Below, piece after piece: positions 7,402 to 22,016 of a stretch of DNA of 22,016 nt. The notes beneath the pieces were generated by a model. That model made no database searches and had not been told where the DNA came from. It saw nothing but the letters and a program-made list of their open reading frames with translations. The DNA comes from a virus. The translations under genes were made by a program, and so were the position numbers. The stretch lies in the IMG/VR virus record IMGVR_UViG_3300027782_000402, positions 1 to 22,016 of that record; one strand, given 5' to 3'. How positions within the stretch are numbered: position 1 is the stretch's first letter; each line of letters begins with the position of its first letter.

Positions 7402-7856
7402 GGCTCAAGTAACCCCTGCTTAGAAAGTGATTCTAAAAGTTTTGGTAACGGCCTGTAGATAACTACAAGTTTTCCAAGGTTACCACGTTTCTTGACAAGC
7501 TTTCCACGTTCGTCTCGAAGTTTGTCAAATTCACCAGATCGAATTAAATATTCTGCAACACAACGCAAGCGTCGTTTAAGGGGTAATTCAGCCTGGGGGA
7601 ATTTACCACAGATTGTGTCGGATTCTAAATTTTTAAAAGCTAAACGCAAACGATTGGCCAGTGTCATGTTGGAATTGGCGTCTTCCTCTTCATATGAGCA
7701 AAGATTTTCTAGGTAACGCTGCAAGCAACCATCATCAAAAGATCCAAAGGGAGGCAAAAACTCTTCCACCTGGAGCACTAAGGACTCAGGTAATAACTGA
7801 GAATGATTCTCAATAGTGATGGCAGATAGGTCTAGGCCGTTAAAACGATTTGTCAT
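7398..7856 (-). CDS. Unknown 152-residue operon protein, possible winged-helix C-terminus
   Basis: No named family is recognised. Residues 1-60 are acidic with ESLVLQVEEFLPPFG. Residues 85-152 are basic: a helix LKRRLRCVAEYLIRSGEF, a charged segment KLRDERGKLVKKRGNLGKL, then VVIYRPLPKLLESLS. A helix followed by a basic hairpin and strand is compatible with a small winged-helix DNA-binding fold, but this is a guess. It overlaps both neighbours by four bases (ATGA), so translation of the HTH gene, this gene and the next is likely coupled. Confidence 0.7.
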   Translation of the reverse strand: MTNRFNGLDLSAITIENHSQLLPESLVLQVEEFLPPFGSFDDGCLQRYLENLCSYEEEDANSNMTLANRLRLAFKNLESDTICGKFPQAELPLKRRLRCVAEYLIRSGEFDKLRDERGKLVKKRGNLGKLVVIYRPLPKLLESLSKQGLLEP

Positions 7857-8281
7857 GGTTGCAATCCATCGTCCATGGCCCTGGTATTGACCGAGTTATA
7901 CATGACGCCAGGATTAAAATCAGCCAACTCAACGTCTTTGTTTCTAGCAAAGGACTGAACAAGTTGATTCCAGGGGATTCGGATGACTGCTTTCTTACCA
8001 ATATCTGGACAGACATTGACATAATGAATGCCTTCCGTCCAACCCTTCCCTTTATTTTTTTTGCCTTGGCTGATCCAGTTGCGAAGAGTTTGATCAGATA
8101 CCCCCAAGCGCCTAGCACATTCTTCTGTAGGGATGTACTCATCAGCAAAAGCTTCGGGATTTAAACGGTCTGTTTCTCCATCCGAATAACGGCTATGCCA
8201 CATGGAAGCCAAGATATTTCTAATGCCTTTTAATTCGTGGGCCACATCTTCCAAGCCTTTACGAATTCCAAAAGTTGCCAT
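7853..8281 (-). CDS. Helix-turn-helix DNA-binding protein
   Basis: The 142-residue protein has a clear MerR/excisionase-like helix-turn-helix at residues 48-75: YIPTEECARRLGVSDQTLRN followed by WISQGKK. A basic loop, WTEGIHYVNV and a strand (KKAVIRIPWNQLVQSF) complete a winged fold. Such proteins act as phage transcription regulators or recombination directionality factors. No integrase is seen here, so regulator is the more cautious reading. It is the first gene of the minus-strand operon and divergent from the membrane protein at 8337, with 55 bases between the starts, so it could control both. A TATAAA string (8298-8303, minus strand) lies 16 bases before its ATG. Confidence 0.75.
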   Translation of the reverse strand: MATFGIRKGLEDVAHELKGIRNILASMWHSRYSDGETDRLNPEAFADEYIPTEECARRLGVSDQTLRNWISQGKKNKGKGWTEGIHYVNVCPDIGKKAVIRIPWNQLVQSFARNKDVELADFNPGVMYNSVNTRAMDDGLQP

Positions 8282-8733: not shown

Positions 8734-10977
8734 GTGGCCAACAGGCGTATATCCGAATTACCTGTATTACAAGGCATTGATCTCAACAATGCTGATCTTT
8801 TTACTGTTGTTCACGTAAGCGAAGTTGACCCAGGGTTAAAAAATAAAAAAATTCAAACGTCCGAATTCCGTACGTATTTAAACGGTTATTACCTAACGTT
8901 AACGGGTGGTACGGTCGGTGGCAACACAACGTTTACCACGGGCCTTACCGTTTCCGGTACATCGTTATTAAACAATCTTACGGTAACTGGCACTGCTACA
9001 TTCTCTACTTTTTCAATTGATAACATCACGGTTACCGGTGTTATTAGTGGAAAAACCATTACAGGAGACACTGTTCAAGCCAGTACTTTTACAGCCGTTA
9101 CCGGAAACATAGATACATTCACAGCGGCTAGAGCGACTGTTGTCAGTGGTATCTTTACATCTTTAAGTGGAACCACAATTACTGGTACTTCTGTCAATGC
9201 AACTACTGGTAATTTTCAAACTGCTTCTGGCGTAACAGTTATTGGTGGTACTGTAAGTGGCACTGTTGTCACCGGTAATACCGGTAGGTTTGCAAATATT
9301 ACAGGTGTCAGTGGCGTTTTCACTTCTCAAGTTTCTGGTGCTGTAGTCACAGGAGATACTGGCAGATACACAACAATTACTGGTGGTACAGGCGTCTTTA
9401 CTACTAGTCTGAGCGGTGCCAATATCACCGGTGTTTCTGGTGTTTACACAACGCAATTATCTGGTGCTGTTATTACAGGAGACACCGGTAGGTTTGCAAA
9501 CATAACGGGTGTTAGCGGTACTTTTACTACTCAACTATCTGGTTTAACCATTACAGGTGCAACTGGTTTATTCAGCACGGTAACGGGTATTTCTGGTGTT
9601 TACACAACGCAATTGTCGGGTGCTGTTATTACGGGAGACGCAGGGCGTTTTTCAAACATTACTGGTGTCAGTGGCGTCTATACAACACAACTTTCAGGTG
9701 CTGTAATTACAGGTGACGCAGGACGCTTTAGTAATGTTACTGGTGTTAGTGGTGTCTTTACTACCAGGCTCTCAGGCCAAACCATTACTGGTGTCAGTGG
9801 TCTCTATCAAATTGTTACGGCTGCAACCGGTATATTTACTTCCACAATTTCAATTCCATCCATCACAACCACAGGGGGTTTGACTGCAGGTGGCAATTTA
9901 ATTGTTAGTGGAAGTGGAGTTATTTCCTCAGGTTTAACTGTTAGTGGCACATTGTCGGGTACAACCGTAACAGGTACAACCGCTGCATTCACTAATATTA
10001 CTGGCAGCGCTATCTACGGAACAACCAGTATCTCTGGTCTTTTTATCTCTGGTGATACAGCAGCTTTCACATCTGTTACTGGGGCAACTGGTGTATTCAC
10101 TAGTGTGTTATCCGGAAATGTCATTACAGGCAATACGGTTTCAGGAGGAGCAGCCGTATTTACTACAGGTACTTTTACTAATTTTTCAGGGACAGTTATT
10201 AGTGGAGCTACTGGTCGTTTCACAACTGTTACGGGTATAAGCGGTGTTTATACGGCGCAACTTTCAGGTGCAACCATTACGGGAAACACTGGTCAATTTA
10301 CCAATATTACTGGAGTATCTGGTGTATTTACCACAGCATTAAGCGGTGCAATTATTAGTGGTGATACCGGTTTGTTCACGCGGATCACAGGTATTACCGG
10401 GACATTCACACAACTTACTGGTACAAACTTTAGTAGTACCAGCGGTCAAATCACATCTTTACAAAGCACTAGCGGAGTCTTTGCAACGTTCCTATCTGGT
10501 TTTACAATCAGCGGCGCTACGGCAAATTTTGGTCAAGCCAATGCTACTTCTGGTTCTATTACATTTATATCAGGGCAGAGCGTAACAGCACTTAGCGGTA
10601 ATGTTGACTACCTCAGTGGGGTTAGGGTTATTGCTAATGACAGTATTTTGGGCGGTACATTTTCCGGCCTGCAATACAAAGTATCTGGCAACATAACCGT
10701 TATTGATACCTCCGGTGGTGTTAGGCCGTACGGACAGTTTACATTCCCCGCTTCCCCCGGTACTAATAACTACATTCTGACGAGTAACGGGGATGGCACC
10801 ACGATGTGGCGCTCAACCACATTCCCAAGTCAAGGTGTTATTCTTGAAAGTATTATTGTAATTACAGTAAATACTTCAATTACCAGCGGTAATAATGGTT
10901 TATCCGTTGGCCCGGTAACTGTGGCATCTGGCGCAGTCGTTACAGTTCCAAGTGGCTCTGTTTGGGGAATTTTTTAA
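8734..10977 (+). CDS. Repeat-built tail fibre / adsorption protein 1
   Basis: The 747-residue protein starts at GTG 8734. Residues 1-60 form a conserved head (ANRRISELPVLQGIDLNNAD, then VHVSEVDPGLKNKKI), a pattern of phage fibre proteins that bind the tail. From about residue 60 to 640 it is built of Thr/Ser/Gly/Val beta-repeats. The clearest period is 26 residues, for example NITGVSGVYTTQLSGAVITG followed by DTGRFA, as expected for an elongated trimeric beta-helix or beta-roll. The C-terminal 100 residues leave the repeat pattern (YGQFTFPASPGTNNY, TSNGDGTTMW) and may be the knob or the chain-joining end. It is followed after 39 bases by a second fibre gene whose N-terminus has the same repeats. 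Host-surface attachment is inferred. Confidence 0.8.
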   Translation: MANRRISELPVLQGIDLNNADLFTVVHVSEVDPGLKNKKIQTSEFRTYLNGYYLTLTGGTVGGNTTFTTGLTVSGTSLLNNLTVTGTATFSTFSIDNITVTGVISGKTITGDTVQASTFTAVTGNIDTFTAARATVVSGIFTSLSGTTITGTSVNATTGNFQTASGVTVIGGTVSGTVVTGNTGRFANITGVSGVFTSQVSGAVVTGDTGRYTTITGGTGVFTTSLSGANITGVSGVYTTQLSGAVITGDTGRFANITGVSGTFTTQLSGLTITGATGLFSTVTGISGVYTTQLSGAVITGDAGRFSNITGVSGVYTTQLSGAVITGDAGRFSNVTGVSGVFTTRLSGQTITGVSGLYQIVTAATGIFTSTISIPSITTTGGLTAGGNLIVSGSGVISSGLTVSGTLSGTTVTGTTAAFTNITGSAIYGTTSISGLFISGDTAAFTSVTGATGVFTSVLSGNVITGNTVSGGAAVFTTGTFTNFSGTVISGATGRFTTVTGISGVYTAQLSGATITGNTGQFTNITGVSGVFTTALSGAIISGDTGLFTRITGITGTFTQLTGTNFSSTSGQITSLQSTSGVFATFLSGFTISGATANFGQANATSGSITFISGQSVTALSGNVDYLSGVRVIANDSILGGTFSGLQYKVSGNITVIDTSGGVRPYGQFTFPASPGTNNYILTSNGDGTTMWRSTTFPSQGVILESIIVITVNTSITSGNNGLSVGPVTVASGAVVTVPSGSVWGIF
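9295..9810 (+). repeat. Degenerate 78-bp (26-codon) tandem repeats in fibre gene
   Basis: Units start at 9295, 9421, 9499, 9577, 9655 and 9733, each 26 codons, plus one short 16-codon unit at 9373-9420. All follow (N/T)(I/V)TG(V/I/G)(S/T)G-(V/T)(F/Y)T, then LSG and ITG. Synonymous positions have drifted, so the repeat is much stronger in protein than in DNA. A second, less regular block lies at about 10160-10420. Confidence 0.85.
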
Positions 10978-11016: not shown

Positions 11017-13434
11017 ATGGCTTACGGTGGAATTAAGTTTGATAATATCACTTTTACCAATGCGGGCGTCGATACAAATATTACGGTCTCAGGTTTGTAT
11101 GCTTCTACTACTTCCGGTTTAACTGTTACCGGCACCATTTCAGGCAACCTGGTTCAAGGTGCAACAGTTTCAGGCACCACTGTAACAGGCACATCAGCTA
11201 ACTTTGCCTCTGGTGTATTTACTACACAGATATCAGGCACAATAGGTATTTTTGGCGCCGGATCTGCTACAGCACCAGGCCTTGCAGTTGGCGTCGGCAC
11301 AACCTATAAACCAGGTATTTACTCCCCTGGTACTGACCAGCTGGCGATCTCGACGGGGGGCACGGGGCGGCTGTTTGTGGATGCAAGTGGGACTGTGGGG
11401 ATTGGTGTTGGATCAGATTTAGGCGCATCCAAATTTTTTATAGCTGGCAACGGTACTGCTGGCTTGACAAATATCTTTACTCTTCGTACGGCAAGTGGAA
11501 ATTCATATGGGCTTCAAGTTAAAGGCAACAATACCAATGATGAATGGTTAATCCAAAATTACTACAACGCCGCCTTAGCTTTTGGAACAAACAACACCGA
11601 GCGGATGCGCCTAACCTCCGCTGGCCTTTTAGGTCTGGGGACTAGTGCGCCTAACTATCAACTGCATGTCACTACAAGTTTTGCCGTTGGAGCAAGTGGT
11701 TTTAATCAGCAGCTTAGCTTTACTAATGACACCATTCAGTCCTTAATACTTGGAACTGGTTATACCGCGCTAAAGCTTAACCCCTTGGGAGGCAACGTCG
11801 GCATCGGGACGAGTAGCCCTCTGAAAAAAACCGAAATACGAAGTGCTCCAACAACCGCAGACACTGACGGATTGCGAGTCAGCGACGGAACTCGATACAT
11901 GGAGTTTGCTCAGACCGGGGCAACTTACAGCTACATGCAAGTTGGTGCAAACCAGAACCTTTTGTATTTTTCTGGTTCCGATCTTCATGTCTCCACTGAT
12001 GGCGCAAATGCAATTACTTTAAACACCAACGCTCTTGAACGCGCCCGCATCGACTCCTCCGGCAGGCTCTTAGTTGGCACGTCTACTAGCCTTGATGTAA
12101 ACGCGGGATTGCAAATTGCTGTAAATAGTTCATTCAGTGATTTTTACCCCTTACAAATTTTCCATTTTGATTCTACAAATGATGCGTCAGGCCCAACAAC
12201 AATTTATACACGATCCAAGTCGGACACTGTTGGGACTATTTCTGCCGTAAATGTAGACGATGGTCTAGGGGTAATTTTATTTAGAGGGGCGGGTACATCT
12301 AATTATGTTAATGGTGCACTAATTAAAGCAGAGGTTGACGCTGGAACTGTAAGCAACACATCAATGCCAACTCGCCTAGTGTTCTCCACTACGGCAGACG
12401 GAGCGGCAAGTCCGACGGAGCGGATGCGAATCGACAGCTCCGGCAATCTTGGCGTAGGTGTCACTAGTCCAGCAACTGCATCTTTCGGAAATGTAATTAG
12501 GAATAAAGCGCCTTTGGGCACGGGTGCTGCTGGTTATTTTACCGAAGGTTCCAACTCTGATACATGGTTCGGAATCTATTCCGGTACAGGCACAAGCGAC
12601 AGTGCCGCCTTGGTATACCCAAGCACTGGCAGCCTTCGTATTGCCACTACCACTGGTGTAGGTGTTGGAGGATTCAGTGAACGACTGCGAATCACATCCG
12701 CTGGCCTTGTAGGCGTGGGGACTTCTACGCCAACATATAAGTTCCAAATAAATTCAGGTTCAAATCCTGGCGGAGAGGCTGGAGCAATTGCATTTGGAGA
12801 TGTTGGCCCTGGTACGCCTTGTGCGCGTATTAATGCTTATCGAGTTGATGGATCGTTTTCAGGGGAACTTCAGTTCTTTACAACTGTCGGCGCTGGCACA
12901 GAAACCCGCGCAATGACCATTGACTCGTCACAGCGCGTACTTGTCGGCATTACTTCCGCCAACACATCTGGCGCCAAGCTTCAAACATCAGACGGCCTGA
13001 CCTTCCCCGCAACGCAAGTCGCCTCGTCCGATCCAAACACCCTCGACGATTATGAAGAGGGGACGTTTACGCCGGTTATTCAAGGAAGCACTACTGTTGG
13101 CACGGCTACTTATGCAACTCGGAGTGGTTTTTATACAAAAATAGGAAGACAAGTTACAGCACACATTGCAATAAACTGGAGTTCGGGTACAGGCACTGGC
13201 AATCTTCAAATAGGTAGTTTGCCATTTAATACAGCATTGGCAGACGGTTCTGTAAGTTTTGGACTTGTTGACAATGTAACTTTAACTACACTCTCTATTT
13301 TAACTGGAACCGCAGCCGTCGGCTCCGCTCGTATTGATTTGACAAATGCAATAGTTGGAGGGGGCAGTTATGCTTTTTCGCCTTATGATGCATCCGGTTT
13401 CCTGGTGCTGACAGTAACTTACTTTGCCACGTAA
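11017..13434 (+). CDS. Tail fibre / spike protein 2 with ERMRIDSSG repeats
   Basis: The 805-residue protein has three visible parts. Residues 1-80 repeat the Thr/Gly beta-motifs of the preceding fibre (TVSGTTVTGTSANF, GVFTTQISG). Residues about 95-665 carry at least five spaced copies of a motif known from many phage fibres and spikes, of the form ERMRIDSSG-x-LGVGT-x2-P (for example at NTERMRLTSAG, LERARIDSSG, PTERMRIDSSG, FSERLRITSAG). The C-terminal 130 residues open NTLDDYEEGTFTPVIQG and continue with YTKIGRQV, a C-terminal module also seen in unrelated phage fibres. This fits a long receptor-binding fibre whose tip can be exchanged. Local GC-rich stretches (for example about 11340-11400) differ from the first fibre gene and suggest mosaic origin. 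Specific receptor unknown. Confidence 0.8.
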   Translation: MAYGGIKFDNITFTNAGVDTNITVSGLYASTTSGLTVTGTISGNLVQGATVSGTTVTGTSANFASGVFTTQISGTIGIFGAGSATAPGLAVGVGTTYKPGIYSPGTDQLAISTGGTGRLFVDASGTVGIGVGSDLGASKFFIAGNGTAGLTNIFTLRTASGNSYGLQVKGNNTNDEWLIQNYYNAALAFGTNNTERMRLTSAGLLGLGTSAPNYQLHVTTSFAVGASGFNQQLSFTNDTIQSLILGTGYTALKLNPLGGNVGIGTSSPLKKTEIRSAPTTADTDGLRVSDGTRYMEFAQTGATYSYMQVGANQNLLYFSGSDLHVSTDGANAITLNTNALERARIDSSGRLLVGTSTSLDVNAGLQIAVNSSFSDFYPLQIFHFDSTNDASGPTTIYTRSKSDTVGTISAVNVDDGLGVILFRGAGTSNYVNGALIKAEVDAGTVSNTSMPTRLVFSTTADGAASPTERMRIDSSGNLGVGVTSPATASFGNVIRNKAPLGTGAAGYFTEGSNSDTWFGIYSGTGTSDSAALVYPSTGSLRIATTTGVGVGGFSERLRITSAGLVGVGTSTPTYKFQINSGSNPGGEAGAIAFGDVGPGTPCARINAYRVDGSFSGELQFFTTVGAGTETRAMTIDSSQRVLVGITSANTSGAKLQTSDGLTFPATQVASSDPNTLDDYEEGTFTPVIQGSTTVGTATYATRSGFYTKIGRQVTAHIAINWSSGTGTGNLQIGSLPFNTALADGSVSFGLVDNVTLTTLSILTGTAAVGSARIDLTNAIVGGGSYAFSPYDASGFLVLTVTYFAT

Positions 13435-16855: not shown

Positions 16856-17527
16856 CTATCCCTCATCATACTCGGGAGGTTCCTTAGCATCTAATGGGTG
16901 TGTAATTGTGTTTTTGTATTCTTTCTCAACAATTGGTCTGATGCTTTGACCGGTGTTTAGTTGACGGGTGTACAACATTAATTTCTCTGCTTTGAACTCA
17001 ATATCAAAAGGATGCACCCGTTGTGGTGGCGTCATACGATTCCAGTTTGATACCATGTGCAGTGGATTGCCGCACTTAGTATTGCTACATGTCCTGGTAA
17101 CAACAAGCAAACCAACATCCCCCCAAGCTGCTTGGTATAAAGCTTTGTGAATGTTGACGTTTTCGGCACGTTGCTTGCTGTAATCAGAGCGATAAGAAGG
17201 CATGCAAATTCTTCTGGGACTAGACCCAGTAGGAGAAACAATAGGCCAACAATCTTCTGGAAAACCTATCTGTACCTTCTTCCATAACGCAGCATATTTA
17301 GCTTTGTAGTCAGCGTGCATGTAGTTGACATCAAAACCACACACATTAGAAAGAATTTTTTTGGCACAGTGGTAACACCAGTGGCCAGCAGAATCTCTAA
17401 TTACATGACCATGGGGGCACGGATAACCAAGGTAGTAGCCATTGGTTTTTAGTTGAGACTCATCGAGATTGTCAATGAGATTGATGTGCCTGAATGTTGC
17501 GTTTAACTCGGGAATCGAATAAGCCAT
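16856..17527 (-). CDS. HNH endonuclease-like zinc-binding protein
   Basis: The 223-residue protein has two Cys/His clusters. The first, residues 37-54, reads CPHGHVIRDSAGHWCYHC and should bind zinc. The second carries the mark of many phage HNH nucleases: HKALYQAAWGD (His127 at the expected first-His position), then RTCSNTKCGNPLHMVSNWN, which contains Cys147, Cys152, the NPLH turn with His157, and Asn161 or Asn163. It would cut DNA in a metal-dependent way, either as a free-standing homing-type nuclease or in recombination or packaging. A one-base gap separates it from the upstream 112-residue HNH-like gene, so the two are probably one transcript. Activity is inferred. Confidence 0.7.
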   Translation of the reverse strand: MAYSIPELNATFRHINLIDNLDESQLKTNGYYLGYPCPHGHVIRDSAGHWCYHCAKKILSNVCGFDVNYMHADYKAKYAALWKKVQIGFPEDCWPIVSPTGSSPRRICMPSYRSDYSKQRAENVNIHKALYQAAWGDVGLLVVTRTCSNTKCGNPLHMVSNWNRMTPPQRVHPFDIEFKAEKLMLYTRQLNTGQSIRPIVEKEYKNTITHPLDAKEPPEYDEG

Positions 17528-17528
17528 C

Positions 17529-17867
17529 TTAAGTCCAGTCTGATTTGCGACGGTTGCGACGAGAGCGGGGCGTGGGAGTTTTTCTTTTGTGTAGGACCAA
17601 CTCTCCGTTTTCTTTTTTTAGTACATCTGAACTACCTGGGTCCTCGCCTGTACGCAAGTAGTACACCAGCCGGTGGGCATGGTACTTCTCGTTGTCAAGA
17701 CTAAGAACGTAGTACAAGCCAGAGCTATCCAGCCGTCCTGCCACATCACCAGGCTTGTGCCAACCAGTTTCCTCCACCCATACCAAGCCACTGGGGGAGT
17801 CGTCTGAGAGCCCTAGCCGTTGCCTTAAGACCTCCAGGGGGACTAATGGTTTGTACGTACGAGCCAC
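17529..17867 (-). CDS. Small HNH-like protein (N-terminal half of HNH fold)
   Basis: The 112-residue basic product starts at GTG 17867. Residues 25-78 follow the front part of common phage HNH proteins: SGLVWVEETGWHKPGDVAGR, then GLYYVLSLDNEKYHAHRLVY and YLRTGEDPG. In complete members this leads into (I/V)DH-x-NG with the catalytic His. Here the corresponding segment is SDVLKKENGELVLHK, so the DH pair is missing and the normal C-terminal half is replaced by a short Arg/Lys tail (RSRRNRRKSDW). It may be a degenerate or partner protein rather than an active nuclease. A TATAGT box in the outer end of the inverted repeat lies 22 bases before its start. Confidence 0.62.
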   Translation of the reverse strand: MARTYKPLVPLEVLRQRLGLSDDSPSGLVWVEETGWHKPGDVAGRLDSSGLYYVLSLDNEKYHAHRLVYYLRTGEDPGSSDVLKKENGELVLHKRKTPTPRSRRNRRKSDWT

Positions 17868-17889
17868 AGGGTAAGTGCAGACTTTTCAG

Positions 17890-17895
17890 ACTATA
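17890..17895 (-). promoter_or_regulatory. Candidate TATAGT promoter box before small HNH-like gene
   Basis: On the minus strand TATAGT, within the left arm of the inverted repeat, ends 22 bases before the GTG at 17867. This is the same spacing as the boxes before other genes in the window. Confidence 0.4.
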
Positions 17896-18094
17896 CCATA
17901 ACTTTTATCTTTATATAAGCCAAATGACACTTTAGCCCAAAGTGTAATTATTTGCAGCACTTTGCCCCAACATCTAGTCCAAACTGGAGTCTCACCCAAT
18001 ACTCCTGATCCCCAGGTAGACGTACTTATGTACCACTACTAATTACACTTTGCCCCAAAGTGTCATTTGCTTCATATAAGGGTTAAAACATAGG

Positions 18095-18100
18095 TATAGT
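18095..18100 (+). promoter_or_regulatory. Mirror-image TATAGT box facing the other way
   Basis: The right arm carries the mirror copy, GGTATAGTCTGAAAAGTCTG at 18093-18112, pointing rightward. No convincing plus-strand gene follows, only a TTG frame of about 23 codons. Transcription from it would run antisense into the terminator and glycosyltransferase gene. Confidence 0.35.
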
Positions 18101-18144
18101 CTGAAAAGTCTGCACACATCCCGTCTTTTGTATCAAGCGGACAA

Positions 18145-18172
18145 CAAAAAACCCCCACCTTGCGGCAGGGGT
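18145..18172 (-). terminator. Intrinsic terminator of the replication/glycosyltransferase operon
   Basis: Read on the minus strand, ACCCCTGCC pairs with GGTGGGGGT in a nine-base-pair stem with two G-T pairs, capped by a GCAA (GNRA) tetraloop and followed by TTTTTG. It lies 24 bases after the glycosyltransferase stop and should end the transcript coming from the primase-helicase and speD. Confidence 0.8.
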
Positions 18173-18195
18173 CATACTTCTCAACACCAACAACC

Positions 18196-19467
18196 TTAGC
18201 CCTTGGTTCCCACCAACCGTTTTTCGCGCTTCACCTTCTTCTTCTTTTTCTCCTTCTCCACCCCTACCTCTGCCTCACCATCAGCAGCTTGCAGCGCATC
18301 CTGGAACACACCATTGAATTGAGCAGCGACCGTATCCCAGTCAAACTGAGTGCCAGTACAGCGTTCGTAACACGCATCAGCCACGGCTGAAAGCTTGTCG
18401 CGGTTGTCGTACAGGTCCGTGAGGATGGCTGCGAGGTGGTCACTGGAGGGGCAAGGCATCTCCCGTGCGTAGTTGGTATCCACATCAACGTGGTTGCACT
18501 GGATGAGGGGTGCGTAGCCGTCAAAGATCTCTTTGCAGGACGTATGGTTGGGCACCACTTGAGCCACGCGGCAGGCCGCATTCTCAAAATTAACCAGTCC
18601 CCAGCCCTCTCCCTTGCAGGTATTAACACCTACATCGACAGCGTTATAGATCAAGTTAAGGGTTTCAACCTTGACATTTGGCGGGCTTTCCGATTGTGCG
18701 GTCAAGATGATGCGACCATTTGGATCAAGACCTTCCCGTTGCATTGCACGTCCAAAAACCGGCAGTACATCCCATCCCTGGTCCTTCAACCCCATATGTA
18801 GATACAACTGGGTATCCGGCTTATCCTTGGCAAATTTTGCAAAAGCCTCAATTGTAATATCAATCCGCTTACGGAATTGATTGCGATTTCCATTGAACAC
18901 AATAAAAATATCATCTTTCAAATTAAGTTGCTTTCGTGCTTCAGACTTATCCATGGGGTAGAACTGACCACGTGTCACACCATGGGGAATCACAGCAATA
19001 GGCCTGTTGATGCCACCTGCAATAAATTCGTGGGCACCAAATTCCGTATAAGAAATTACGGCATCCCAATCGTTGGCGGTTTCACCAAGGCACCCAGTCC
19101 AGGCGTAGCTGTCCATGGGTGCATAACCCACAAATTTAAATTTTTTCTCCTTGTGTAAATCAGCAATACGTTTGTACTGTTCATTAATGATCCACATATC
19201 ATTAATGGTAAACACAATATCAGGCTTCTCTTTCTCAACAACTTCTCTAATGCGTTCCTCACCGAAGGGCGCCGTCTGGAACCTATTAGATGAAGGGTAC
19301 ATCTTGTAGTGTTCCTGTAGAGGAGTCGGGTCACCCCACCAGTTATGCGATAGGACCACAACATCGTATTCATCCCGAATGCGCTCAAGGACATTTTCCG
19401 TCACTCGCGCAAATCCGGTCATGGCAACAATGTCGCCACACCAAAGCAATTTCTTTTTAGTAGTCAT
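18196..19467 (-). CDS. GT4-type (GT-B fold) glycosyltransferase
   Basis: The product, 423 residues from ATG 19467, is a retaining glycosyltransferase that moves a sugar from a nucleotide donor. N-terminal acceptor part: LLWCGDIVAMTGFARVTENV, then DIVFTINDMW and GGINRPIAVIPHGV. C-terminal donor part: FIVFNGNRNQFRKRIDITIE, and GEGWGLVNFENAAC with the E-x7-E pair typical of GT4. A Lys/Glu-rich tail of about 30 residues (VEKEKKKKKVKREKR) ends the protein. The frame extends three codons to a TTG, but ATG fits better and lies 22 bases after a TATAGT box. The target may be phage DNA, virion protein or host surface glycan; the sequence does not say. It follows speD by 29 bases. Confidence 0.85.
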   Translation of the reverse strand: MTTKKKLLWCGDIVAMTGFARVTENVLERIRDEYDVVVLSHNWWGDPTPLQEHYKMYPSSNRFQTAPFGEERIREVVEKEKPDIVFTINDMWIINEQYKRIADLHKEKKFKFVGYAPMDSYAWTGCLGETANDWDAVISYTEFGAHEFIAGGINRPIAVIPHGVTRGQFYPMDKSEARKQLNLKDDIFIVFNGNRNQFRKRIDITIEAFAKFAKDKPDTQLYLHMGLKDQGWDVLPVFGRAMQREGLDPNGRIILTAQSESPPNVKVETLNLIYNAVDVGVNTCKGEGWGLVNFENAACRVAQVVPNHTSCKEIFDGYAPLIQCNHVDVDTNYAREMPCPSSDHLAAILTDLYDNRDKLSAVADACYERCTGTQFDWDTVAAQFNGVFQDALQAADGEAEVGVEKEKKKKKVKREKRLVGTKG

Positions 19468-19489
19468 GCAAGACAAGATATCTCGCTTT

Positions 19490-19496: not shown

Positions 19497-19850
19497 TTAA
19501 TTAACTGGTGTTGTGGACCGAACTAATTCTTTTTCTTCCGTAGTTTGTGCTTTTAATTTATTCTTTAAAAACTCAGCAGCCTTATGAGTATTGGTTGTAT
19601 CACCACATGTATACAAATCAACCGCCGCATACCCAAGCTCTGGCCATGCATGAATAGATGCATGGGATTCAGTCAGCAAAGCAAGAAGCGTAACCCCCTG
19701 TGGCTCAAACTTTTCACCAAAGATCCTTAAAATATTGGCACCTGCTAGTGCTAATGATGTCTCCAGGTAAGCCTGGAGTTGATCGTAGTCATCAAGAATC
19801 TCTGGATCACAGTCATACAGGTCCAGGATTAGGTGCCGTCCATTGCTCAT
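19497..19850 (-). CDS. speD: S-adenosylmethionine decarboxylase proenzyme
   Basis: SpeD decarboxylates S-adenosylmethionine to supply the aminopropyl group for spermidine, a polyamine that helps condense DNA. The 117-residue size fits the short prokaryotic class. The key residues are present: LLTESHASIHAWPELGYAAV gives the self-cleavage site Glu61-Ser62 (Ser62 becomes the pyruvoyl group) and His67, and VDLYTCGDT gives Cys82. These match Ser63, His68 and Cys83 of the Thermotoga enzyme. The N-terminal GRHLILDLYDCDPEIL is also typical. The ATG lies inside the stop of the primase-helicase (ATGA overlap), so the two are coupled. speD is a known host-derived gene in marine cyanophages. No speE is visible in the window. 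Confidence 0.93.
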   Translation of the reverse strand: MSNGRHLILDLYDCDPEILDDYDQLQAYLETSLALAGANILRIFGEKFEPQGVTLLALLTESHASIHAWPELGYAAVDLYTCGDTTNTHKAAEFLKNKLKAQTTEEKELVRSTTPVN

Positions 19851-22016
19851 TCATCAATACTTAACTCATCCTCCATTTTCGCATTAGTATCTGCAGTTAG
19901 GTCCATCCCATAAAATTCTTTGTATTCATCTTTGTTAGATGCAACCTCTACAACTGAGGGCCAGCCTTCATATTTAATATCAGATTCACGGACTGCCACA
20001 TTAATGATGCGTACACCCCTGGTATTACGTGTAGCAAATACCTTAATCTTCAACTGGTGTGTACAGATATCCATGAAGAGTGGTTCAAATCGATTTCTGG
20101 ACATCACCCCTACATTGCACTGGCGACAGAACTCGGCATAACTTGCGTATAACCACTTATCATTCTGTGCATAAATATTGGATGAACCCATCGGTGCATT
20201 CTTAGTAAACCCAACAGCCGAGCTAACGCCTGGGTCATAGATGAGCTTATGTTCCATCCAATCCAACAATGGATTAGATCGTAGGTTTTGCATCTTCTCA
20301 TACTTCTGGAAGAACCTTACCTTCTTACTGGTTTCCATCAGGTATTCCCGCATGGTTTCCTCAGGCATATCCAGTAACCAATTCACCAACCCTGGCAGCA
20401 AAGGCGAAAATTCACCCTGTGGTTCTCCTTTTGAATTGAACTTAATCAATTCCTTTTGTTCCGCCTGCGTACCAGTGAATGGTCTATCGAATGGAATTGT
20501 GAGACGACGACGAGCCAAACCAGATGTGTAGTCGGTTGACTGAATAGCTTCATTAGCTGTAATCATTACCATCCCATGGTATTGAAAAGGATCAAGCGTC
20601 TCACCTTGATACTTACGCTCCGAACGAATCCAGTCATTACCTGTGATTGCTTTCAGTTTCGAAACGGAGCCACCCCAACGGTCTGCATCTTGGAACAACA
20701 ATAGTTTTTTACCCATATAAGCAGCAGCTTCAAAACGGTTTTTCTCCATATTCTCAAAGTCGGTAGAATATGTATTTCCCCTACCCACCAATGCAACCGC
20801 CAGGTTTGCGTAGGTAGACTTACCAGATTTACCAGGGCCTACAATCTCTACAAACTTTTGAATTTCATAACGCCCCAGGAGTGTGGCCCGCAACCAAGCC
20901 CTCAAAACCTGGGTGCGATCCCAGCTATCATGCTGCGTATGCTTCAGCCATTTAACAATGTCATCACAAGTTGCCCCTGCATCGTAGGCATAGGGCATCT
21001 GTTGCGTTAGATACAAATCTTTACTAAACGGTAGCAGCTCACGCGTCTCAATATTTAAGACACCATTAGTGAAAAGCAAATAGTCTGAACCGTCATACCA
21101 ATCATCAAATGTAACGATTGATTGCAACTGTGAAAACACATCATTCATCAGATTGCTACTGAACCCTTTCGGTACAAAATCACCCAACTCAATCAGCTTG
21201 CAACGAATGTCACCCAACATCTCAATCCTGGTCAAAGGCGACCAAAGACCCTTGGATTCCCGACCGTACCCAAAGAATTGCCCGTGCGGCTGACTAAAAA
21301 CCAACTTCCCCTGGTACATTTGCAGCAACACTTCCGTGATGGTGCTTGCCGGTGGGTTCTTTACGCGCGGTTCTTTGTCTGAGTCCACTGCTTCTGCTGG
21401 GGCAGTTTGTGTACCAACCCGCTTCCTTGGCTTCTTTACAGCCGGTTTTGTTTCCTGGGGCTGAGCCACCATTGCTTCAAGATTCATTTGTAGTTCCTGT
21501 TCAAGTTCATCCAATTGCCTTGCCAATTCCACAGACTGATCAAGTGTCACATCGTCTACATTCATTGCACGATGTTCTTGCGAAGGTTTCCAACCATGCT
21601 CTTGGGCGATATGTATCAGTGACCCCAAGCCACGACCCCCTCCTTTACTAAAGGAAAGCCAACGTCTGTGGCATTCACCTTCCACATATTTATCTGATTG
21701 CTGGGACCATTCATCCCATGCATCAAGCAACGATTCATCCGTTGAGTGAAGTGATTGTCCAATCGTTATCCAAATGTCGTAATCATCACAGGCTTCTGGA
21801 GGCAATGACAACATTGCTTCCTGCGCCAGTTGCATGTCACGTTCAAGACTGATCTCAGCATTTACCGCAAAATGCGGACCAACAATCCTGGTAGTTTCCT
21901 TTGCTGGTACCCCCTGCTTAACATTTTTATTAATGATGGAATTCAAAAGCCAGTCCGGAAAATCAGGCAACCGATCAACCCACTCAAAGCCCTGCCCTTC
22001 TGCGGTGTAGTAACCA
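19847..22016 (-). CDS. Primase / SF3 (D5-like) helicase, 5' end outside window
   Basis: The frame is open to the right edge (EGQGFEWVDRLPDFPDWLLN is continuous across the TTG at 21970), so the N-terminus, probably a primase-polymerase domain, lies outside. Numbering from 21970: residues 45-127 match a PriCT-2-type primase C-terminal domain (DDYDIWITIGQSLHS, WDEWSQQSDKY, GLGSLIHIAQEHGW). Residues 140-210 are an acidic, Gln-rich linker. The superfamily 3 helicase follows, with Walker A GPGKSGKST (378-386), Walker B KKLLLFQDAD (421-430), motif C MVMITANE (467-474) and the Arg-rich LARRRLTIPFDRPF. It would prime and unwind DNA at the phage fork. Downstream it is coupled to speD by an ATGA overlap. 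Confidence 0.9.
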   Translation of the reverse strand, partial: GYYTAEGQGFEWVDRLPDFPDWLLNSIINKNVKQGVPAKETTRIVGPHFAVNAEISLERDMQLAQEAMLSLPPEACDDYDIWITIGQSLHSTDESLLDAWDEWSQQSDKYVEGECHRRWLSFSKGGGRGLGSLIHIAQEHGWKPSQEHRAMNVDDVTLDQSVELARQLDELEQELQMNLEAMVAQPQETKPAVKKPRKRVGTQTAPAEAVDSDKEPRVKNPPASTITEVLLQMYQGKLVFSQPHGQFFGYGRESKGLWSPLTRIEMLGDIRCKLIELGDFVPKGFSSNLMNDVFSQLQSIVTFDDWYDGSDYLLFTNGVLNIETRELLPFSKDLYLTQQMPYAYDAGATCDDIVKWLKHTQHDSWDRTQVLRAWLRATLLGRYEIQKFVEIVGPGKSGKSTYANLAVALVGRGNTYSTDFENMEKNRFEAAAYMGKKLLLFQDADRWGGSVSKLKAITGNDWIRSERKYQGETLDPFQYHGMVMITANEAIQSTDYTSGLARRRLTIPFDRPFTGTQAEQKELIKFNSKGEPQGEFSPLLPGLVNWLLDMPEETMREYLMETSKKVRFFQKYEKMQNLRSNPLLDWMEHKLIYDPGVSSAVGFTKNAPMGSSNIYAQNDKWLYASYAEFCRQCNVGVMSRNRFEPLFMDICTHQLKIKVFATRNTRGVRIINVAVRESDIKYEGWPSVVEVASNKDEYKEFYGMDLTADTNAKMEDELSIDE

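Follow-up and report, generated by a model that had tools for sequence, protein, structure and literature searches.

A long inverted repeat between two operons

What does a long inverted repeat do in the gene-free gap between two operons of a cyanophage? The window analysed here, a stretch of 22,016 bases, is a 22-kb fragment of an S-EIV1-like cyanophage, with Synechococcus phage S-EIV1 as its nearest named relative (glycosyltransferase 68% in DNA and 63% in protein; primase 54%). A gap without genes, from 17867 to 18196, separates two minus-strand operons, of which the upstream one reads primase-helicase, speD, glycosyltransferase and then an intrinsic terminator that was absent from the initial annotation of this DNA. 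The inverted repeat lies behind this terminator, about 1.7 kb downstream of the primase-helicase gene. We consider it probable that the element is the replication origin of the phage, worked by its own Prim-Pol/SF3 primase-helicase. Its neighbours are:

16856–17527, minus strand: second endonuclease-like gene (phrog_1872, E = 7e-9)
17529–17867, minus strand: small HNH-endonuclease-like gene (phrog_99 HNH endonuclease, E = 6e-10), whose start adjoins the outer end of the left arm
18150–18173, minus strand: predicted intrinsic terminator of the glycosyltransferase operon, with a similar one in relatives
18196–19476, minus strand: glycosyltransferase, last gene of the upstream operon
19497–19850, minus strand: speD (S-adenosylmethionine decarboxylase), in the primase-helicase operon
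19847–22015, minus strand: primase-helicase, candidate initiator, truncated by the window end; PriCT_2, D5_N, DUF5906 (SF3) and a C-terminal domain that appears to resemble an origin-binding winged helix

The phage-borne speD between primase and glycosyltransferase is kept in most relatives and missing in some (e.g. L158, L165, L185), and the 112-aa HNH gene has relatives at up to four sites per phage genome (G003, G006, G008, G012). The plus strand of the window encodes two long proteins of 747 and 805 aa (8734–10977 and 11017–13434), of which the first, with its repeats of the unit ITG(V)SG...FTTQLSGA, has the look of a repetitive tail-fibre protein.

The element itself spans 241 bases. Its dimensions as given in the initial annotation (arms of 76 bases, 62 of 76 positions complementary, a spacer of 89 bases and an exact outer block of 23 bases) were reproduced exactly, and the half copy of the palindrome and the small central hairpin described there are both present. 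Palindromes are also found in the arms; here the initial annotation needs a correction, since their loops differ from one arm to the other. The parts are:

17875–17950: left (HNH-side) arm, ungapped, 62/76 complementary to 18040–18115
17875–17897: left outer exact block, 23/23 paired; contains CAGACTTTT-CAGACTATA, an imperfect 9-bp tandem
17898–17922: drifted AT-rich segment TTTTATCTTTATATAAG, candidate unwinding element; the AT peak lies on the HNH side across clusters
17927–17945: palindrome ACACTTTAGCCCAAAGTGT of the left arm
17951–18039: spacer of 89 nt, with GTCTCA (TGAGAC) at 17989–17994 inside the small hairpin at 17986–18005
17958–17970, plus strand: half copy CACTTTGCCCCAA of the palindrome, in the spacer
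18040–18115: right (glycosyltransferase-side) arm, paired with the left arm
18045–18063: palindrome ACACTTTGCCCCAAAGTGT of the right arm
18093–18115: right outer exact block, 23/23 paired

Pairing is perfect over the outermost 23 nt (17875–17897 with 18093–18115) and the innermost 13 nt of each arm, and the segment between these blocks has drifted. The central hairpin has the form GGAGT-N10-ACTCC, and the GTCTCA within it sits on the dyad centre (17995). Matches to CACTTTGCCCCAAAGTG with up to three mismatches were observed five times, compared to 0.15 expected. With an ungapped score of 41, the repeat stands far above the runner-up of the window (12) and the maximum (14) among 30 shuffles of the whole window under a first-order Markov model, and no second copy of the element was found in the window.

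Conservation of the dyad in related cyanophages

Relatives were collected as 80 loci by means of the glycosyltransferase and 80 by alignment of the primase, which gave 85 gap regions after removal of near-duplicates. Apart from some losses and insertions, the relatives keep the order primase, speD, glycosyltransferase, gap, HNH, endonuclease. Of the 83 non-redundant clusters with enough flanking sequence, 70 have the strongest inverted repeat of the whole locus in this gap, compared to 3.8% expected by length, and a score of at least 17 is reached by 52 gaps vs one flank. The sole flank exception is probably L079, which has a second dyad further from the glycosyltransferase. A weak dyad (score below 17) is present in 31 of these 83 clusters. 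Among nine near-complete genomes, the repeat is the top-scoring one of the genome in six. A search of viral contigs with the exact outer-arm sequence gave no match because the arm sequence is not conserved: the arms diverge almost completely between contigs, yet pair within each contig. The initial annotation had staked its claim on the occurrence of paired arms in close relatives, and they are present there.

S-EIV1 itself (KJ410740, ~7700–7955) carries nested inverted repeats (16-bp outer, 13-bp inner GGATATGTAAGAT); the 13-mer recurs a third time close to where the next gene begins. Phage S-CBS4, a relative by its glycosyltransferase, does not share the synteny and provides no test of the element. 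Two of the contigs, G003 and G010, have identical 127-base ends, which probably represent an assembly overlap of circularly permuted genomes.

The centre of the repeat precedes the next gene by 145 ± 46 nt and follows the glycosyltransferase stop by 255 ± 168 nt, the distance to the HNH/endonuclease start thus being the steadier one (sd 46 vs 168 nt). Long gaps contain same-strand genes (cupin-like) inserted on the glycosyltransferase side. In L061, L163, L180 and L196 the cupin insert between glycosyltransferase and dyad, on the same strand, resembles the cupin domain of type II mannose-6-phosphate isomerase.

Sites within the arms

Several short motifs recur despite the divergence of the arms. 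TGAGAC/GTCTCA occurs in 60 of the 85 clusters, compared to 10.6 in shuffles; it is mostly present in one to three copies, concentrated no more than ~40 nt from the dyad centre. ACACTTTG is found in 26 of the 85 (1.0 expected). CACTTT-N-AAAGTG palindromes are present in two of the nine near-complete genomes, only at this site. Tandems are clear in few arms, and those of 9 bp in the cyanophage outer arms (16% vs ~10% in shuffles) are not general beyond a few loci. In close relatives the mid-arm differences between the two arms follow the same pattern, and of the 46 clusters whose arms differ in AT content, 39 have the higher value in the HNH-side arm (p = 2e-5); we therefore conclude that the arms carry sites and are not merely pairing partners. 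The AT content peaks at 73%, 60–75 nt from the dyad centre on the HNH side (52 clusters), and the minus strand TTATATAAaGATAAAA of the segment 17898–17922 is retained in relatives.

Such sites might also serve transcription, and the main, serious rival to the origin reading is an operator/promoter of the HNH-endonuclease operon. A phage regulator would bind the paired arm sites, perhaps with looping, and the promoter would lie in the HNH-side arm (minus strand TGGTATAGT, extended −10). This rival remains serious because of the fixed distance to the operon: in nearly all relatives the dyad is found ~80–230 nt upstream of the HNH/endonuclease start, despite insertions on the other side. The AT-richness of the HNH-side arm and a TATAGT conserved in close relatives point in the same direction. 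Nevertheless, we regard the operator as unlikely, since arms of 60–100 nt with full dyad symmetry are larger than a usual operator, the promoter scan called no minus-strand promoter there and the genomes examined hold no second such site. In addition, unrelated Prim-Pol/SF3 phages carry an inverted repeat beside the primase, ahead of other genes. Origin and promoter functions may also coincide.

Two other regulatory candidates were set aside. A global operator was rejected, as the palindromes and motif clusters occur at this site only. The divergent promoter suggested in the initial annotation is disfavoured: no convincing divergent gene was found, and the genes inserted on the glycosyltransferase side run in the glycosyltransferase direction, except for one large antisense ORF (L198).

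Selection on DNA

Among arm positions that had changed on both sides in pairwise comparisons of alignable loci, 51 stayed complementary and 10 did not, compared to about four compensated changes expected under independence, a count to be read as descriptive since the pairs are non-independent and the loci were chosen for having an inverted repeat. These compensated double changes and the conservation of the repeat in the gap confirm what the initial annotation had proposed from one sequence, namely selection on both arms and not recent duplication.

Selection for pairing in RNA would favour G-T on the transcribed strand. The arm mismatches comprise 159 G-T vs 180 A-C (p = 0.28), and given the lack of a G-T excess, selection therefore acts on DNA and not on RNA. 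This bears directly on the large structured RNA that the initial annotation had named as a further candidate, which could be a leader riboswitch, an anti-terminator or a decoy made by transcription through the region. Folding of the strand is much stronger than that of shuffles (z = −13) and the concerted arm changes would suit an RNA stem, but we consider this reading very improbable: G-U tolerance is seen on neither strand, Rfam and tRNA scans found nothing, the arm-specific AT-rich differences are conserved, not paired, and the spacer varies from ~7 to 270 nt among relatives. Least credible of all is a link with mobile DNA, in which the element would be a recognition site of the neighbouring HNH homing endonuclease, a relic of it, or a MITE-like mobile element. 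The HNH gene does directly adjoin the repeat, and some genomes have further HNH relatives at other places, but the dyad is also present at loci that lack the HNH gene (S-EIV1, L006, L072, L081, L185, L197), the window lacks a second copy and the synteny is fixed in >80 clusters.

The primase-helicase as candidate initiator

Of the functions named in the initial annotation, a replication origin is best supported. It explains the uniqueness of the element, its dyad symmetry, the fast concerted turnover of the arms, the central motifs, the AT asymmetry and the recurrence of such repeats with one class of initiator. GC skew, which the initial annotation had proposed as a check, does not support an origin: over nine whole genomes the skew does not switch sign consistently at this position, and the local step there is opposite in sign to that of a bidirectional origin.

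The full-length primase of S-EIV1 contains Prim-Pol, PriCT_2, D5_N and DUF5906 domains, and the copy in the window lacks only the N-terminus, which is cut by the contig end. In an AlphaFold model of its C-terminal 239 residues (mean pLDDT 65), only the part from about residue 90 onwards is well modelled. The best PDB match of the model is 1KA8, the origin-binding domain of phage P4 (Foldseek probability 0.99, E = 0.018), and an ORC winged helix comes next. With moderate confidence, the primase C-terminus thus resembles an origin-binding winged helix. The alpha protein of phage P4 shares a homologous SF3 helicase region (E = 5e-18) and a similar predicted C-terminal origin-binding domain (1KA8), but its primase domain is of the Toprim type and the P4 origin (ori1-crr) is made of iterons (PMC4234260).

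If the element is an origin, the C-terminal domain would bind repeated sites in both arms and at the centre (the outer blocks, the ACACTTT palindromes and TGAGAC), and the dyad would allow a pair of SF3 helicase rings to be assembled in opposing orientations, possibly aided by extrusion of a hairpin or cruciform. The AT-rich part of the HNH-side arm would then melt and the Prim-Pol domain would lay the first primers. On this view the arms would turn over fast because initiator and sites co-evolve. In SV40-type origins, inverted initiator sites are combined with AT-rich DNA, and SF3 helicases assemble on them in opposite orientation; the layout is alike, but sequence, size and host system are unrelated, so that this is a resemblance only.

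pRN1 and other Prim-Pol/SF3 phages

A precedent is known from the Sulfolobus plasmid pRN1, in which a stem-loop of ~100 bp, located behind a terminator and downstream of the Prim-Pol/SF3 gene, is the origin and is necessary and sufficient in cis; among relatives the stem is maintained without conservation of its sequence (Berkner et al. 2014, PMC4234260). The authors suggested a comparable stem-loop for Bordetella phage BIP-1, on the 3' side of its replication protein. The cyanophage locus shares with pRN1 the Prim-Pol/SF3 initiator, the terminator followed by a large looped inverted repeat downstream, and pairing that is kept despite divergence. In contrast, the pRN1 element of ~100 bp has a 21-nt stem and a 58-nt loop, lies 54 bp after the gene and lacks iterons, whereas that of the cyanophage extends over 241 bp, has 76-nt arms with internal palindromes and a central TGAGAC, and is further from its putative initiator gene since speD and the glycosyltransferase intervene; its origin function is a prediction. 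A cyanophage stem-loop origin of the pRN1/BIP-1 kind was not found in the literature searched.

Bordetella phage BPP-1 encodes a protein, Bbp29, with the same four Pfam domains as the S-EIV1 primase. Our scan located an inverted repeat with 48-nt arms ~470 nt 3' of this gene (score 28 vs 14.5 elsewhere), which may or may not be the structure drawn for BIP-1/BPP-1 in PMC4234260. Like the cyanophage element it is exact in its outer and inner blocks and has drifted between them, but its outer block is a perfect 9-bp tandem and its spacer is only 8 nt long. The strongest repeats of BcepC6B (score 29), Acinetobacter phage 4316 (19) and AchV4 (21) are centred within ~130 nt of the primase stop, and perfect 9-bp tandems form the outer blocks in BPP-1, BcepC6B and Acinetobacter phage 4316. 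Of 12 such phages overall, 8 have the strongest repeat of the locus no more than 1.5 kb 3' of the primase, compared to 12% expected (p = 2e-5, uncorrected for relatedness); the other four are negative or tied, and some positives are weak. Chi, SS2019XI and UF_RH7 have only a weak dyad. In UF_RH7 (L221), the region 7700–7901, 3' of the primase, contains several copies of CTAAGTGCC / CCTAAGTT in both orientations, which suggests a multi-iteron version of the dyad. P4-type primases of cyanobacterial plasmids (DUF3854/Toprim, no Prim-Pol match) were not accompanied by a comparable inverted repeat.

More tentatively than for the cyanophage element alone, we propose that Prim-Pol/PriCT_2/SF3 phages may share a general class of origin, common to cyanophages, proteobacterial phages and plasmids of archaea. 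Such an origin would have its initiator sites arranged as an inverted repeat with an AT-rich centre, 3' of the initiator operon; its sequence would turn over fast, and its dyad would be kept by co-evolution of initiator and sites. If true, the widespread S-EIV1-like cyanophage lineage would gain a predicted replication origin, and a suggestion made in 2014 from one phage group would become a testable rule, namely to seek the origin at the strongest inverted repeat 3' of the Prim-Pol/SF3 gene. The numerous variants found in nature, with their paired changes in the arms, constitute a dataset for the co-evolution of initiators and origins.
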